This document shows, piece after piece, positions 5,613 to 32,603 of a stretch of DNA of 33,446 nt. A program made the position numbers and the translations under genes. The notes beneath the pieces are model-generated. The model searched no databases and was not told the origin of the DNA. It saw only the letters and a program-made list of their open reading frames with translations. Source of the stretch: Bacillota bacterium (lineage in GTDB: Bacteria; Bacillota; Sulfobacillia; Sulfobacillales; Sulfobacillaceae); contig JAMDDZ010000153.1 of assembly GCA_023488565.1 (NCBI GenBank), forward strand, positions 386 through 33,831. Reading direction: 5' to 3'. Each line of letters opens with the position of its first letter. Within the stretch, counting starts at the first letter, position 1.

Positions 5613-5641
5613 TTGACCGTTCCCTAAAAATTGGGTATAGT
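5613..5641 (+). promoter_or_regulatory. Sigma-A-type promoter upstream of the c-di-AMP riboswitch
   Basis: TTGACC (5613-5618), 17-nt spacer, TATAGT (5636-5641). Confidence 0.65.
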
Positions 5642-5654
5642 ATAGACATTACCT

Positions 5655-5840
5655 TGAATACGCCGAATTCTGCCTGTCAGAAACGGGGGACCCGATTGTG
5701 TGGGGTGAATTGCGTTTGCAAGGGGCAGGTCCACGGTCCCAACCCGTCAGCTAACCTCGTAGGCGTTGGGGGCTCAAGGTTTATATGGGTTTCGTGCCTT
5801 CCTATCCCCCGGGAACATGTCGGGCTTTTTTTGTGGGCTC
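5655..5840 (+). ncRNA. c-di-AMP riboswitch (ydaO/yuaA leader) with downstream expression platform
   Basis: Contains the recognisable blocks GAAACGGGGGACCCG, GGGGTGAATTGC, AAGGGGCAGGTCC and CCCAACCCGTCAGCTAACCTCGTAGGCGTTGGGG, then a weak CCCG...CGGGCTTTTTTT terminator-like segment (to about 5832). Confidence 0.88.
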
Positions 5841-5860
5841 GTCTCATTCTGGGAGGTGTT

Positions 5861-7087
5861 TTGAAATTGCCACGCCGAGTATTGCAAATATCGCTAACTG
5901 CTGACCCGCTAAACGCTCTTGATGGGGGTGAAATGGGCGGGCAGCAAATAGTAGTTCGGGAAGCAAGCCTGCGATTGCAGCACCAAGGGTTTGGGGTCGA
6001 TGTGCTGACTGCCGCTCAACACCCGATGCTGCCGCATCATGCGAGCCTGGGTCAAAAGGGTCAAGTGATCCGTACCTCTCGTGTGTCAGCGCCGATGTCA
6101 GATGACCAATGGCTGCAGTTGCAAGATCAACTGTTTCACGACGCGATGACCTGGATCGAGGGTAATCACCGTCGCTACCAATTGGTGCATAGCCATTTTT
6201 GGGTTTCTGGGCTGATTGGAGAACGGATTGCTCGACATCTAGAGGTCCCTTGGGTGCATTCGCCGTACAAAATGGCAGAATGGGTGAAGAGACCCTATGG
6301 GACATATTCTGAAATTCGTCAAGAACATGAGAGAGATCTGATTGCCCAAGCCGATGCCGTGGTGGTGCCTTATCTCAAGGAAACCGATTTAGTACACCGT
6401 TACGCACCTAAGGTCCCAATTTACGTGGTGGCGCCCGGGGTTGACGTTACCAGCTTTTTTAGTCGGGACCCAGGTCCGGTACTTAAAGGGTTGGGGTTAT
6501 CGCGCCGGCCTTTGCTTTACGTCGGTCACTTGGATGTCGGGCGGGGTATCCATGAGGTGCTGGAATATATGACCACTCAGTCTTTACCGGACGATTTAAT
6601 ACTGCTTCTCATCGGAGGAGATCGGGGCGCAGTGGTACAAGGTCATCCGCAAGATCCGCGATTAGCGGAGCTGGCTGAGACTTTGGGGAATCATGTGCGA
6701 TTTTTGGGGCCCATGCCCCACCGGGCCGTCGCCATGTACTTTGCTACTGCCCAAGCGGTCATCGCCCCCAACCAGGGACCCACCTTAGGAATGGCGGTGT
6801 TGGAGGCGCTGGCATCGGGTACTCCGGTGGTTGGAACCAATGTGCCCGGGGTTGCCGATTGGATTGACCCTGCTGTGAACGGATTCGTGTGTGAAGCCAA
6901 CAGCGTGGCAACGCTGTGGCATTATGCGCGGATACTTTGGGATGATGCGAATTTGGCTCATAAGATGGGATTGGCTGGTCAAACCGTGATTCATCAAAGC
7001 CATGGCGGAGATGCGATGGCGTCGGAATTGGCTCAAGTGTATGAAGAGGTATGCCAAGGCAGTTCTCCGAGTGTAGACGTCAGCTAG
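5861..7087 (+). CDS. GT4-family glycosyltransferase (sucrose-phosphate synthase / MshA-like)
   Basis: GGEMGGQQIVVREASLRLQHQGFGVDVLTAA, LVHSHFWVSGLIGERIARHLEVPWVHSPYKM, YVVAPGVDVTSFF, LLYVGHLDVGRGI, PNQGPTLGMAVLEALASGTPVVGTNVPGVADWI. In-frame TTG at 5861 with RBS GGGAGGTG; the ORF-track start at 5654 lies inside the riboswitch. Confidence 0.9.
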   Translation: MKLPRRVLQISLTADPLNALDGGEMGGQQIVVREASLRLQHQGFGVDVLTAAQHPMLPHHASLGQKGQVIRTSRVSAPMSDDQWLQLQDQLFHDAMTWIEGNHRRYQLVHSHFWVSGLIGERIARHLEVPWVHSPYKMAEWVKRPYGTYSEIRQEHERDLIAQADAVVVPYLKETDLVHRYAPKVPIYVVAPGVDVTSFFSRDPGPVLKGLGLSRRPLLYVGHLDVGRGIHEVLEYMTTQSLPDDLILLLIGGDRGAVVQGHPQDPRLAELAETLGNHVRFLGPMPHRAVAMYFATAQAVIAPNQGPTLGMAVLEALASGTPVVGTNVPGVADWIDPAVNGFVCEANSVATLWHYARILWDDANLAHKMGLAGQTVIHQSHGGDAMASELAQVYEEVCQGSSPSVDVS

Positions 7088-7111: not shown

Positions 7112-7142
7112 ACCGGACAAGGAGTATCCTTGTCCGGTCTTG
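7112..7142 (+). terminator. Hairpin/terminator after the glycosyltransferase gene
   Basis: ACCGGACAAGGA-GTA-TCCTTGTCCGGT perfect 12-bp stem; the U-tract is weak (CTTGCTTG). Confidence 0.6.
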
Positions 7143-7143
7143 C

Positions 7144-7172
7144 TTGACACCGGTACACTTTTTCTTTAATAT
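7144..7172 (+). promoter_or_regulatory. Sigma-A promoter for ylxM-ffh and downstream genes
   Basis: TTGACA (7144-7149), 17-nt spacer, TAATAT (7167-7172). Confidence 0.75.
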
Positions 7173-23327: not shown

Positions 23328-23999
23328 ATGGAAATGGAAAAGTTTTTGTCCATCGGTAAGGCAGCTAAATTGCTAGGTGTCACACCTCAAACGATCCGCA
23401 GGTGGCAGAAAGAGGGAAAAATTCAAGAAACACGCTCCCCCACGAATCGACGCTTATATAGCGCTCGCGAAGTCAAACGGATTTTAGGAGTGCGCACACA
23501 GGAACAAGTCGTGATTTATGCCAGAGTGTCATCGGCCAAGCAAAAAACAGATGGCAACTTAGAACGGCAAGTACAGCGATTGAAACAGTACGCACAAGAT
23601 CACGGATATGAAGTGTCGCGTATGTTTCAAGAGCAAGCATCTGGTATCAACGAGAACCGCAAGCAACTCCATCAACTGCTACAACTAGCCGAACAACACG
23701 AGATTCAACGAGTGTTGATTGAATTTCCTGATCGATTGGCACGGTTTGGGTATCGGTATTTGGAGCGATTTTTAAGTAGTCACGGTGTGACAGTCGAAGT
23801 CACTCATAAAACAGAACCGAAGTCGTCACAAGAAGAATTGGTGAACGATTTGCTGACGATAATAACCGTGTTTTCGGCTCGTCTGTATGGAAAACGATCA
23901 CAGGAATTTCGACAAAAAGCAAAACAGCTAATCAATGAGATGGAAGGGGGTGAAACACATGCCAATGCTGGTGAAAACGGTGAAGATCGGTATCCATAA
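23328..23999 (+). CDS. tnpA: IS607-family serine recombinase TnpA
   Basis: FLSIGKAAKLLGVTPQTIRRWQKEGKIQETRSPTNRRLYS (MerR-like HTH) plus VVIYARVSSAKQKTDGNLERQVQRLKQYAQ (resolvase catalytic Ser). Confidence 0.95.
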   Translation: MEMEKFLSIGKAAKLLGVTPQTIRRWQKEGKIQETRSPTNRRLYSAREVKRILGVRTQEQVVIYARVSSAKQKTDGNLERQVQRLKQYAQDHGYEVSRMFQEQASGINENRKQLHQLLQLAEQHEIQRVLIEFPDRLARFGYRYLERFLSSHGVTVEVTHKTEPKSSQEELVNDLLTIITVFSARLYGKRSQEFRQKAKQLINEMEGGETHANAGENGEDRYP

Positions 24000-25479
24000 A
24001 GAAGTTCATGCCGTCAAACAGCAAGCCATCTTAGCCACACAAGCCTTATATAACCAGACGATTGCGTTTTATATAGAGTTTTTCGTCGGGCATATAGCGG
24101 TGTTGGATGCAAAGAAAGAAGCGCGTCGCAAGAATGGCACACCGTATGAACGGTCATGGACAAATCAAGAATTGCTCACGTTTGCAGAAATGCACACGCT
24201 GGACACAAAGGCACATCCTCATCCCTTGCAACCATTGATCGAAAATCTGCCAAGTGTGCGAACCATGCCAGTCAGCCTTCGTCGTGCGGCCATCAATCAT
24301 GCGATTGGCAAAGTAAAATCGTGGTACAGTCTGCTCAAATTATGGGAAGCCACCGATCGCAAAAAGCGGCCTCCACAACTAGGCCAACCCAACGAACCCA
24401 TCACGTTTTATGCGGATATGGTGGAATATCCTGATGTGGCTGATGTGGATTTGGAAGTTCAGCGTCAAGTTCGCCATGACTTTATCGCGGTGAAATTGTT
24501 TTACGAAGGCAAATGGCAGCTAGTGCCGCTACCAGTGACTTTTCATCGTCAAGCACAAGACGCGTTGACTAAATCACAAGCGGAATCGGTGCGCATATAC
24601 GAAGCAACGATCAAAGCGCGTAAAGCTCCAAAAGAAGCATGGACAGACGCAGAAAGGGCGGCCGTTCGCCCTCGCGAGTGGTGCGCCATGTCCCTTGCTC
24701 TTTATGCGAAACGGGACAAGCAATACCCGGGCGGGTTGCGGTTTGCGTTCCATGTACCGTTTGAAAAATGGGTAGATGCACCGCAAAAAGCCAAAGAACA
24801 ATTCGCCGCGGATCCCGGAATGTCCGTCGTCACCGTTGATCTTGGGGTGAATCGTTTGGCTGTCATGGGTGCGTTCCGGAGCGACAAACTGACGGCGACA
24901 AAATTTATTCACGGGGGAAAAGTCAATCATCATCGGCATCAGTTGTTGAACGTGATTGCGAACAAACGGAGCCAAAGCGGCAGGCTTCAAGCGAATGCGC
25001 AAGATAACGTCGAACTTTGGGGAAAAGTGCGTCACATTGACGAGAACGCGGCGCGGCAGGTTGCCCGCCAGATCGTCGATTTCGCCTTGGCCCACGAAGC
25101 GAAAGTGATTGTGTTGGAGTATCTTCGCCGGTATCGCCCACCCAAAGAACGGATGAGCCGTTCGGGGCGGAAGAACCATAAACGAGCGTATTGGCTGCGG
25201 GGCCAGATCATGAAATGGGTACGCGACTTGGCGTTTCGCGAAGGAATCTTAACGGTCGAACGCAATCCAGCCTATACATCGCAAATGTGCCCGCATTGTC
25301 ACACACAAGGAAATCGGACTGGTCCCCATTTCGCTTGTCAAAATCCATCTCATTTATACCATGCAGATGCGGATTTTGTGGGTATGATGAACCTGTACCG
25401 AAAGTGGAATGGCAGCTTCGTCTATCCGCGAAAGAAAAACCGTGCGGATGAACCAAAGCCTGTGCAGGCGTATGCCTAA
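23959..25479 (+). CDS. tnpB: TnpB RNA-guided nuclease homologue (IS607-associated)
   Basis: RuvC-like VVTVDLGVNRLAVMG, VIVLEYL, zinc finger CPHCHTQGNRTGPHFACQNP, DADFVGMMNL: D-E-D motif appears intact. Confidence 0.92.
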   Translation: MPMLVKTVKIGIHKEVHAVKQQAILATQALYNQTIAFYIEFFVGHIAVLDAKKEARRKNGTPYERSWTNQELLTFAEMHTLDTKAHPHPLQPLIENLPSVRTMPVSLRRAAINHAIGKVKSWYSLLKLWEATDRKKRPPQLGQPNEPITFYADMVEYPDVADVDLEVQRQVRHDFIAVKLFYEGKWQLVPLPVTFHRQAQDALTKSQAESVRIYEATIKARKAPKEAWTDAERAAVRPREWCAMSLALYAKRDKQYPGGLRFAFHVPFEKWVDAPQKAKEQFAADPGMSVVTVDLGVNRLAVMGAFRSDKLTATKFIHGGKVNHHRHQLLNVIANKRSQSGRLQANAQDNVELWGKVRHIDENAARQVARQIVDFALAHEAKVIVLEYLRRYRPPKERMSRSGRKNHKRAYWLRGQIMKWVRDLAFREGILTVERNPAYTSQMCPHCHTQGNRTGPHFACQNPSHLYHADADFVGMMNLYRKWNGSFVYPRKKNRADEPKPVQAYA

Positions 25480-27921: not shown

Positions 27922-28194
27922 TCGGTCGTAAAGCCCCGGCCTTTAGGCTTGGGGATATAAGCCCGGGGCCACATTTGCTAGAATGAACCCAAGGGCCGAT
28001 GTGAGACGAAAACCAAGTTCCTCGACACAATCGGTTGATGGTCAAGCGCAGGGCGGGCCACACCCGGTGAGCCTGGGGAGCGCCCTCTTGCGGACGAACG
28101 AGAAACGCCCTAAGAAGCAAATGGTGTGATGAATCAGGAACCCGATGCCGGAAGGATCGGGAATCCCCCGGATTTTTTCGTGGGAGAATGTCAA
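27922..28194 (+). mobile_element. Short IS200/IS605-derived element lacking tnpB, retaining left end, structured 3' segment and right end
   Basis: Left-end-like GGTCGTAAAGCCCCGGCCTTTAGGCTTGGGGATATAAGCCCGGGGC; internal ATGGTGTGATGAATCAGG; right end GGGAATCCCCCGGATTTTTTCGTGGGAGAATGTCAA, typical of IS605-type ends. Confidence 0.65.
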
Positions 28195-29345
28195 TTTTGC
28201 AAAGCGTTCAGAAACTCGGCAACCACGTCGGTGGGATCTTCCAGGCCCACCGACACCCGCACTACATCAGAAGTAATTTGCCGCTCGTTGCGCTCTTCTT
28301 GGGTCAGTGCGGCATGACAGTGCAACTCCGGTAGCGAGACGATGGTCTCGGCTCCGCCAAGCCCGGCTCCGATGCGGGCAAAGTGCAACCTTTCGGCTAA
28401 CCGGGGCACTGACGCGACATCCTTGAGACGGAAGGTAACCATTTGACCAAATCCTTTGTCAGTGGCCATGGTTTCGTTGGCAACGGCGTGACCTGGGTGT
28501 GATGGCAATCCCGGATAAAACACTTGAGACACCGCAGGGTGAGATGTCAATGCGAGCGCCAACGCCATAGCCGTTTGTGATGCTTGTCGCATTCTCACCG
28601 GGAGTGTGCGTAGCCCGCGATGCACCAAATATGAATCGTCAGGAGATAAAATGGGTCCGCAGGCATTTTGAATGAAATAAAGTTGTTGAGCCAGTTCTTG
28701 GGTGCGAGCTACCGCGAGTCCCGCGGTAACGTCGGAGTGTCCCCCAATCATCTTGGTTCCTGAATGCAACACCAGATCTGCACCCATCGTTAGAGGGTTC
28801 TGCAGATAAGGAGTGACAAAGGTGTTGTCAATCCACACAGATAATTGGTGACGATGCGCCCAGTCTACGATGGCCGGCACGTGCGCTACATGCAAAAAAG
28901 GATTAGAGAAATTTTCCACCAAGATGGCCCGCGTATTTGGTTCAATGGCTCGGTCCAGATCTTCAACTTGGTCGGTGTCCACGTAGGTTACCGCAATGTT
29001 GAAACGGGAGAATACCCCCCGCAACACCCTTTGGGTACCGCCCTGGCAGTCCCGGGTAACTAAAAGGTGATCTCCGGCGCTCAGCAACAAAAAAGTTGCG
29101 GTCAGTGCAGCCATGCCTGACGCAAACGCAAAGCCGCGAACGCCCCCTTCTATGGTCGCCATAGCGGTTTCTAAGGCTTCACGGGTAGGGTTTCCAGAGC
29201 GGGCGTAATCAAATGAAGACGGAGCCCAGGGATTCGTCTGATGATATGTGGTGGCCCGATAGATGGGAGGGACTACAGCGCTTAGTTGCGGATCCAGTTG
29301 GCTGGCGTGGACAAAAGTGGTGTCCGATGGTTTCTTGGTAGACAT
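28191..29345 (-). CDS. Cys/Met metabolism PLP-dependent enzyme (cystathionine gamma-lyase/beta-lyase-like)
   Basis: SFDYARSGNPTREALETAMATIEGG, VDNTFVTPYLQNPLTMGADLVLHSGTKMIGGHSDVTAG (PLP Lys), VRVSVGLEDPTDVVAEF. Confidence 0.92.
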   Translation of the reverse strand: MSTKKPSDTTFVHASQLDPQLSAVVPPIYRATTYHQTNPWAPSSFDYARSGNPTREALETAMATIEGGVRGFAFASGMAALTATFLLLSAGDHLLVTRDCQGGTQRVLRGVFSRFNIAVTYVDTDQVEDLDRAIEPNTRAILVENFSNPFLHVAHVPAIVDWAHRHQLSVWIDNTFVTPYLQNPLTMGADLVLHSGTKMIGGHSDVTAGLAVARTQELAQQLYFIQNACGPILSPDDSYLVHRGLRTLPVRMRQASQTAMALALALTSHPAVSQVFYPGLPSHPGHAVANETMATDKGFGQMVTFRLKDVASVPRLAERLHFARIGAGLGGAETIVSLPELHCHAALTQEERNERQITSDVVRVSVGLEDPTDVVAEFLNALQN

Positions 29346-29363
29346 AAAGAGCGTCCTTCTCTC

Positions 29364-30518
29364 CTAAGGAATAGCGTGCAATGCTTGAGCTAAATCGGCC
29401 TCTAAATCAGCAACATTCTCAATTCCCACTGAAAGCCGGACCAACCCAGGGGTGATACCTAGGGCCATGCGCACCGATTCCGGCAATTCTCGGTGTGTCT
29501 CATAAAAGGGATGGGTAATCAATGATTCTACACCGCCTAGACTGACTGCAGGGATGATGCAATGGAGTTCGTCCATCATTGGGCCGACCGATTCGGGGTC
29601 ATGGAGCCGAAAAGAAATCATAGCGCCGGGGCCAGTGGCTTGTCGCAGATGCAGCAATCCCCCCGGATGTTGGGATAATCCCGGATAATAGGTCGCAGCA
29701 ATTTTGGGATGCTGCGCTAAAAATTGGGCTAGAGCGATGGCATTTTGCTCTTGGCGGTCAAGGCGCAAATCTAGAGTTTTTAGTCCACGCAACAATAACC
29801 AGGAGTCCCACGGCGCTAGGATGCCTCCCGACGCGTTGCAAATAACGGCGATTTCTTCTGCCAACTCGGGACTACGACTAATCACCAATCCGGCCACCAC
29901 ATCGTTATGCCCTGCGAGGTATTTTGTGGCACTGTACACGACGAAGTCTGCCCCAAAATCAAATGGACGCTGCCGCAAAAATGTCATAAAGGTATTGTCT
30001 ACGGCAATCCATGCCCCCTGGGCATGTGCCAATTCGGTTAAAATCTTGAGGTCACTGATTTGCAACAATGGGTTACTGGGGGTTTCGATAAACAGCAAGC
30101 GAGTGTGAGGAGTGAGTGCGGATGCCACTTGGTCTGGGTCGCGCGTGTCGACATATGTCGCGGTCACTCCGAATTTTTGGAATGTGTCTTGAAACAAGCG
30201 ATAAGTGCCACCATAGGCATCCTGAGTTAATACGACATGGTCGCCGGATTTCAACAAATGGCCTAAGGCCGTAATGGCCGCCATCCCGGAACCAAAAACA
30301 CTGGTGCCCGACCCGCCTTCTAGTTCCGTGATGGATTGCGCCAAACTGTGACGGGTAGGATTGTCGGTGCGAGAGTAATCGAATGGGCCAAAGCCGTCAC
30401 TGGTATGTTGGTATGTGACGGTTTGAAAAATTGGGGTAGTAACCGATCCATAAGCAGGATCACTGCCAACCCCGGCATGGGCGACACGGGTATCCAGACG
30501 CCACTCTTTTTGCGGCAA
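29364..30518 (-). CDS. Cys/Met metabolism PLP-dependent enzyme (cystathionine gamma-synthase-like)
   Basis: FDYSRTDNPTRHSLAQSITELEGGSGTSVFGSGMAAI, VDNTFMTFLRQRPFDFGADFVVYSATKYLAGHNDVVAG, LVRLSVGIENVADLEADL. TTG start with GAGGAGAAG RBS. Confidence 0.92.
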   Translation of the reverse strand: MPQKEWRLDTRVAHAGVGSDPAYGSVTTPIFQTVTYQHTSDGFGPFDYSRTDNPTRHSLAQSITELEGGSGTSVFGSGMAAITALGHLLKSGDHVVLTQDAYGGTYRLFQDTFQKFGVTATYVDTRDPDQVASALTPHTRLLFIETPSNPLLQISDLKILTELAHAQGAWIAVDNTFMTFLRQRPFDFGADFVVYSATKYLAGHNDVVAGLVISRSPELAEEIAVICNASGGILAPWDSWLLLRGLKTLDLRLDRQEQNAIALAQFLAQHPKIAATYYPGLSQHPGGLLHLRQATGPGAMISFRLHDPESVGPMMDELHCIIPAVSLGGVESLITHPFYETHRELPESVRMALGITPGLVRLSVGIENVADLEADLAQALHAIP

Positions 30519-32453: not shown

Positions 32454-32603
32454 CTTCTTATCCAGAGTGGTGGAGGGACTGGCCCTATGAAGCCCGGCAA
32501 CCCCCCCTTGCGTAGTGGTGGGTGCCAATTCCTGAAGGACGCAGCGTTGCGTTGTCCTTAGAGATGAGAAGAGTGCTCACGCCTCTTCTCAGGCGTGTTT
32601 TTT
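32454..32603 (+). ncRNA. SAM-I (S-box) riboswitch with terminator
   Basis: TTCTTATCCAGAGTGGTGGAGGGACTGGCCCTATGAAGCCCGGCAACC...GGTGCCAATTCCTG...TCCTTAGAGATGAGAAGAG; P1 TTCTTATC/GATGAGAA; terminator CACGCCT-CTTCTC-AGGCGTG-TTTTTT. Confidence 0.96.

Follow-up and report, generated by a model that had tools for sequence, protein, structure and literature searches.

A candidate c-di-AMP riboswitch cassette with a catalytically atypical GT4 protein of probable sucrose-phosphate synthase ancestry

The uptake of K+ and osmolytes is limited by c-di-AMP. In Streptomyces, the ydaO-like switch of rpfA was reported to work in a ligand-stabilized OFF mode (PMC10117811). In the literature that we searched (the founding surveys of ydaO targets lie outside it), neither sucrose-pathway genes nor GT4 glycosyltransferase (GT) genes were found as targets of the ydaO riboswitch. 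For the sucrose-phosphate synthase (SPS) of T. elongatus (TeSPS), contacts of Glu331 with the 3-OH and of His158 with the 6-OH of the donor glucose were described, together with binding of the UDP phosphate by Arg249; the E331A and H158A variants are each inactive (PMC7264703). The pseudoglycosyltransferase VldE keeps His182 and Asp383 (PMC3441724). Sucrose accumulation in cyanobacteria is associated with the salt response (PMC4390843). Here, we describe a locus in a 33,446-nt stretch of Sulfobacillaceae DNA (the window) at which an SPS-derived GT4 protein with atypical catalytic residues is very probably under the control of c-di-AMP, as judged from sequence comparisons.

The GT gene was found where the initial annotation had placed it, between ftsY (end of FtsY, 5611) and ylxM-ffh (YlxM, 7225; Ffh, 7544). 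The description of this site as the inside of the signal recognition particle (SRP) gene cluster holds for the position, but the gene looks like a transcription unit of its own, with its own promoter and leader, a 12-bp hairpin at its 3' side, and a separate promoter for ylxM (Table 1). The promoter ahead of the leader matches the one originally described; about 1.7 promoter-like matches of this kind are expected by chance in the scanned region. The start codon, previously put at 5861, is more likely the TTG at 5867, because this codon is in register with the orthologous starts and 10 nt downstream of the Shine-Dalgarno sequence, compared with just 4 nt for 5861. A start at 5654 had been regarded as an artifact, correctly so, as the open frame reads through the aptamer.

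Table 1. Features of the GT4 locus (window coordinates)
Feature	Position	Strand	Basis or remark
Sigma-70-like promoter TTGACC-17-TATAGT	5613..5641	+	Consensus scan, 10/12 matches; just 3' of the ftsY stop
P1 extension, 5' strand ACCUUGA	5651..5657	+	Pairs with UCAAGGU, 5774-5780
c-di-AMP riboswitch aptamer	5651..5780	+	Full-length RF00379 match; pairs and compensatory changes over 36 leaders
Antiterminator, 5' strand GGGGGCUCAAGG	5768..5779	+	Pairs with 5797-5810 (CCUU...CCCCC); rivals the P1 extension
Intrinsic terminator CCCGGGAACAUGUCGGG (DNA CCCGGGAACATGTCGGG), then U7	5808..5832	+	Terminator proper at 5808-5824, then seven T; leader hairpin comparison
Shine-Dalgarno GGGAGG	5851..5856	+	Sequence
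GT4-fold protein, 406 aa, SPS/MshA-like; catalytic Glu to Pro, active-site His to Tyr	5867..7087	+	Domain and structure searches, alignments
12-bp hairpin ACCGGACAAGGA-GUA-UCCUUGUCCGGU, 3' of the GT gene	7112..7138	+	-20.7 kcal/mol; terminator-like, poor U run
Separate ylxM-ffh promoter TTGACA-17-TAATAT	7144..7172	+	Consensus scan

Several other features of the window were noted. A SAM riboswitch (RF00162, 86.5 bits) at 32455 to 32570 precedes an open frame that is cut off by the end of the window and, by eye, looks like the N-terminal part of a methionine synthase. A TnpB-like protein with a Cas12f1-like TNB domain (38 bits) and a 223-aa open reading frame ahead of it occupy 23328 to 25479, possibly as an IS607-type element. 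Two adjoining PLP enzymes of Cys/Met metabolism, equal in length, are encoded on the minus strand at 28191 to 30518.

The assignment of the leader to the ydaO/yuaA class was borne out by a match to the entire RF00379 model (positions 1 to 134) with a score of 85.3 bits (E = 1e-18), against a gathering score of 38 bits. In a comparison of 36 leaders, most of the 26 aptamer pairs were standard in 34 to 36 of them, and compensatory changes were observed (e.g., at 5670:5680, 5711:5720, and 5687:5756). The folded leader as a whole, taken alone, gave no signal (z-score = 0.16), which is not evidence against a pseudoknotted, ligand-dependent aptamer.

Downstream of the aptamer, pairing of the antiterminator strand with CCUU and CCCCC would block the terminator, while the UCAAGGU part of that strand can alternatively pair with ACCUUGA at the 5' edge of the aptamer, which would free the terminator. 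The latter pairing (the P1 extension) is standard in 23 to 36 of the 36 leaders, depending on the position (26/30 at one position). For 36 leaders, both a hairpin terminator ending in a U run and a rival hairpin can be drawn; for the G032 leader, the script chose a later hairpin, but the same CCCGGG..CGGG-U7 terminator can be seen in the sequence. The promoter, antiterminator, and terminator together are the predicted layout of a transcriptional OFF switch. At high levels of c-di-AMP (i.e., in K+-replete or low-osmolarity conditions, by analogy with other bacteria), the aptamer would be bound and P1 with its extension would be stabilized, so that the GGGGG strand would be barred from CCCCC, the terminator would form, and the GT gene would be off. 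A drop in c-di-AMP would let the antiterminator form and the gene be transcribed.

Two diadenylate cyclase genes were found in each of the three same-genus genomes that are >90% complete. The genome that contains the window (1.85 Mb; 71.5% complete) yielded no such gene, and we put this gap down to its incompleteness, given the two genes in each of those genomes. Other RF00379 targets in these genomes include classic ones (i.e., KdpA, LysM-NlpC/P60 proteins, and PG-binding/3D proteins), ComA, and an ABC permease. The ComA-type phosphosulfolactate synthase (PF02679, 257 bits), a nonclassic ydaO target, is preceded by a riboswitch in two same-genus loci (L114, 525 to 660; L118, 455 to 590). The ABC permease operon, also preceded by c-di-AMP riboswitches (54 to 58 bits; L120, 537 to 675; L126, 3951 to 4074), resembles nitrate/taurine-type importers and, in L120, also encodes a substrate-binding protein.

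All 34 genomes of the Sulfobacillus family (Sulfobacillus benefaciens AMDSBA4 is among the named relatives) contain RF00379 matches. A GT orthologue (at least 376 bits) is encoded in 31 of these 34 genomes, and the coordinates place a riboswitch directly 5' of the gene in every one of the 31. The sister family of the same order (f142) has orthologues in six genomes (36 to 40% identity), all six with the riboswitch directly upstream (72 to 87 bits). The linkage thus holds in all 37 genomes that have the orthologue, which span 12 genera in two families of one order; 36 of the leaders are distinct, since G033 and the window come from what is in effect one organism. Four examined genomes without the GT gene (G001, G002, G508, and G515) have no riboswitch at the ftsY site, where ylxM and/or ffh directly follow. 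The 37/37 linkage and this joint absence indicate that riboswitch and gene come and go together; the linkage also shows that RNA and gene are one functional unit, so that conditions altering c-di-AMP can reveal what the unit does. The initial annotation had proposed riboswitch control of the GT gene and had named absence of the leader upstream of orthologues as a reason for giving the proposal up; the leader is present upstream of all of them, and the proposal is supported. Chance placement of the riboswitch is ruled out by the same linkage. Outside the order, within the sampled class and phylum, the only comparable GT match (E < 1e-40) was in G145 (L098), a phylum member outside the class. 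Its gene encodes a canonical GT4 protein with the Glu, adjoins an SPP-type gene, and has no riboswitch, making it a useful comparison enzyme.

The GT gene is followed, in 24 of the 31 family genomes that carry it, by an adjacent or slightly overlapping gene for an S6PP-type phosphatase (117 to 146 bits). The closest solved structure to a representative of these phosphatases is the Synechocystis sucrose-phosphatase 1s2o, and the representative resembles the SPP-like domain of bacterial SPS, with 126.7 bits in TIGR02471 (SPP), below the cut-off of 209.75 bits. HAD motifs I to III are intact, and some members carry one Asp-to-Asn change in motif IV. The pairing suggests a compatible-solute-like origin and is the best evidence pointing to an SPS-like ancestry of the GT. 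The S6PP-type gene is absent beside the GT gene in the window's genus (g1), its sister genus (g6), and f142, and no other strong S6PP was found in the g1 and g6 genomes searched, three of the g1 genomes being 93 to 97% complete. Since g1 and g6 form a single clade (nested beside g9), one loss of the phosphatase is the simplest reading. In some genera, variable genes without a shared functional clue lie between the phosphatase gene and ylxM.

The window protein contains the Pfam Glycos_transf_1 domain (80.2 bits) and an N-terminal GT4 domain (49.9 bits), both above the cut-offs, and its best solved structures are SPS 6kih and MshA 3c48 (about 103 bits each). With TIGR02472, which describes larger SPS forms, it scores 34.8 bits (cut-off, 576 bits). 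Its best NCBIfam model is TIGR03449 (MshA; 146.4 bits; cut-off, 462.5 bits), a model that does not separate MshA-type from SPP-paired GTs, as the G145 GT reaches 318 bits. An AlphaFold2 model from four same-genus sequences (pLDDT, 48.8) was too poor for a fold search. An SPS origin is supported by the adjoining SPP-type gene of the 24 genomes. The initial claim of a normal SPS/MshA-type enzyme is weakened by the two replaced residues described below and by the loss of the phosphatase in the window's lineage, and the protein does not qualify as SPS or MshA.

At the position of TeSPS Glu331, the residue is nonacidic in 37 of 37 orthologues (ungapped motif alignment; the column labels are offset by 3 from the numbering of PMC7264703). 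It is Pro in the window and, within a QGPTLG/LGPTLG segment, in nearly all Sulfobacillus-family members (one has Ala); in f142, it is Ala, Gln, or His. Glu occupies the position in each of the five PDB chains aligned with the window protein. The His158 position holds Tyr in the window, Val/Ile in others, Trp/Leu in f142, and, in g10 alone, His. Arg249 is conserved in the phosphatase-bearing genera, is His in g1 and g6, and is lost in f142 too, which retains fewer donor-site residues still; the P-loop glycines and the ribose-binding Glu339 are kept. Since both essential TeSPS residues are replaced, synthesis of sucrose-phosphate by the known mechanism is unlikely. The dN/dS ratio of the GT gene is 0.04 to 0.06 in the window's genus and similar in other genera, so purifying selection continues to act on the gene, and gene decay is ruled out. 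The window GT therefore appears to be a maintained protein that is unlikely to be an ordinary SPS.

On the basis of these results, we favor, with a probability of about 0.6, a c-di-AMP-responsive transcriptional OFF switch acting on an SPS-derived GT4-fold gene that belonged ancestrally to a solute cassette and whose chemistry was changed or lost in the window's genus. Together, riboswitch and gene make up a single cassette with a constant location between ftsY and ylxM-ffh. The S6PP-type sugar phosphatase in the cassette of most genera makes it most likely that, ancestrally, a sucrose-like sugar-phosphate was made and dephosphorylated to a compatible solute, only when needed; from this gene content, we infer an osmolyte role as probable. 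In the window's genus and its sister, where the phosphatase is lost and the donor-phosphate Arg is replaced by His, the protein probably changed its chemistry or became a noncatalytic sugar-nucleotide-binding protein under strong purifying selection. Points against the favored reading are the replacement of both essential TeSPS residues, the phosphatase score under the SPP cut-off, and f142, with no phosphatase and still fewer donor-site residues.

The alternative that survives best, which we hold tentatively, is that the GT4 protein is a pseudoenzyme throughout the order, serving as a sugar-nucleotide sensor, partner, or scaffold, with the phosphatase acting on something else. The nonacidic Glu331 position in all 37 orthologues, the replacement of His158 in nearly all, the inactivity of the two TeSPS variants (PMC7264703), and the absence of Arg249 from g1, g6, and f142 agree with a dead site, and the low dN/dS would reflect a function without it. 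However, the coupling of the GT in 24 genomes to an S6PP-type phosphatase, in which HAD motifs I to III are intact, suggests a phosphorylated product, and the nucleotide-binding residues (i.e., the P-loop glycines, Glu339, and, in phosphatase-bearing genera, Arg249) are kept. Those same residues and the phosphatase partner in 24 genomes fit an active GT whose donor does not depend on either the 3-OH or the 6-OH contact (e.g., a pentose or a 3-modified sugar) and which makes a new glycoside-phosphate, the lost residues being those that hold these hydroxyls in TeSPS (PMC7264703). We consider this doubtful: no biochemical precedent was found in the literature searched, and even VldE retains its His and Asp (PMC3441724). 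The analogy to a VldE-like pseudoglycosyltransferase was dropped for the latter reason. An ordinary SPS with unusual but functional residues, producing sucrose as a compatible solute, would agree with the 6kih match, the SPP-like neighbor, and the association of cyanobacterial sucrose with the salt response (PMC4390843); it is unlikely, as both indispensable residues are gone and the window's genus has no S6PP of 117- to 146-bit strength. Placement in a low-molecular-weight thiol pathway as an MshA-type enzyme, suggested by TIGR03449 being the best model (146 bits), is highly improbable and was dropped, because this score is far under the cut-off, the G145 GT scores higher with the same model, and the neighbor is a sugar phosphatase rather than an amidase or ligase.

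Returning to the favored OFF switch on an SPS-derived gene, a riboswitch on an SPS-SPP-derived cassette would, if the reading is true, extend direct c-di-AMP control to the making of a sugar-type solute. A wider proposal, to which we give even odds, is that this order-wide cassette, with a GT4 protein lacking the canonical Glu and His, ties osmotic signaling by c-di-AMP directly to sugar-derived solute or envelope metabolism through a new transfer chemistry or a sugar-nucleotide-binding regulator. The loss of catalytic residues under strong selection offers a clear test of the GT4 fold without them.

Compared with known ydaO/yuaA systems, the locus shares the full-length aptamer with conserved pairs, the terminator-type OFF architecture, and a genus that encodes diadenylate cyclases; the usual targets are K+ and amino-acid transporters and wall hydrolases, whereas here a GT4/SPS-derived gene is targeted, accompanied in some genomes by a sugar phosphatase gene. 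The OFF mode of the Streptomyces rpfA switch (PMC10117811) fits the window leader, for which we infer the ligand response. The window protein is similar over its full GT4 length to both C. glutamicum MshA (PDB 3c48, about 103 bits) and T. elongatus SPS (Tll1590, PDB 6kih). It differs from MshA in falling below the family cut-off, in lacking the catalytic Glu, and in its neighbor genes, and from the SPS in having Pro for Glu331, Tyr for His158, and His for Arg249. The arrangement in 24 relatives, with the gene for an S6PP-type HAD phosphatase next after that for the GT, resembles the pair of SPS 6kih and sucrose-phosphatase 1s2o, while the window's genus is without the phosphatase. As in the VldE/ValL pseudoglycosyltransferases, a nucleotide-sugar GT-B fold may have been turned to other chemistry, although the His182 and Asp383 kept by VldE (PMC3441724) are not kept in the window's GT family.
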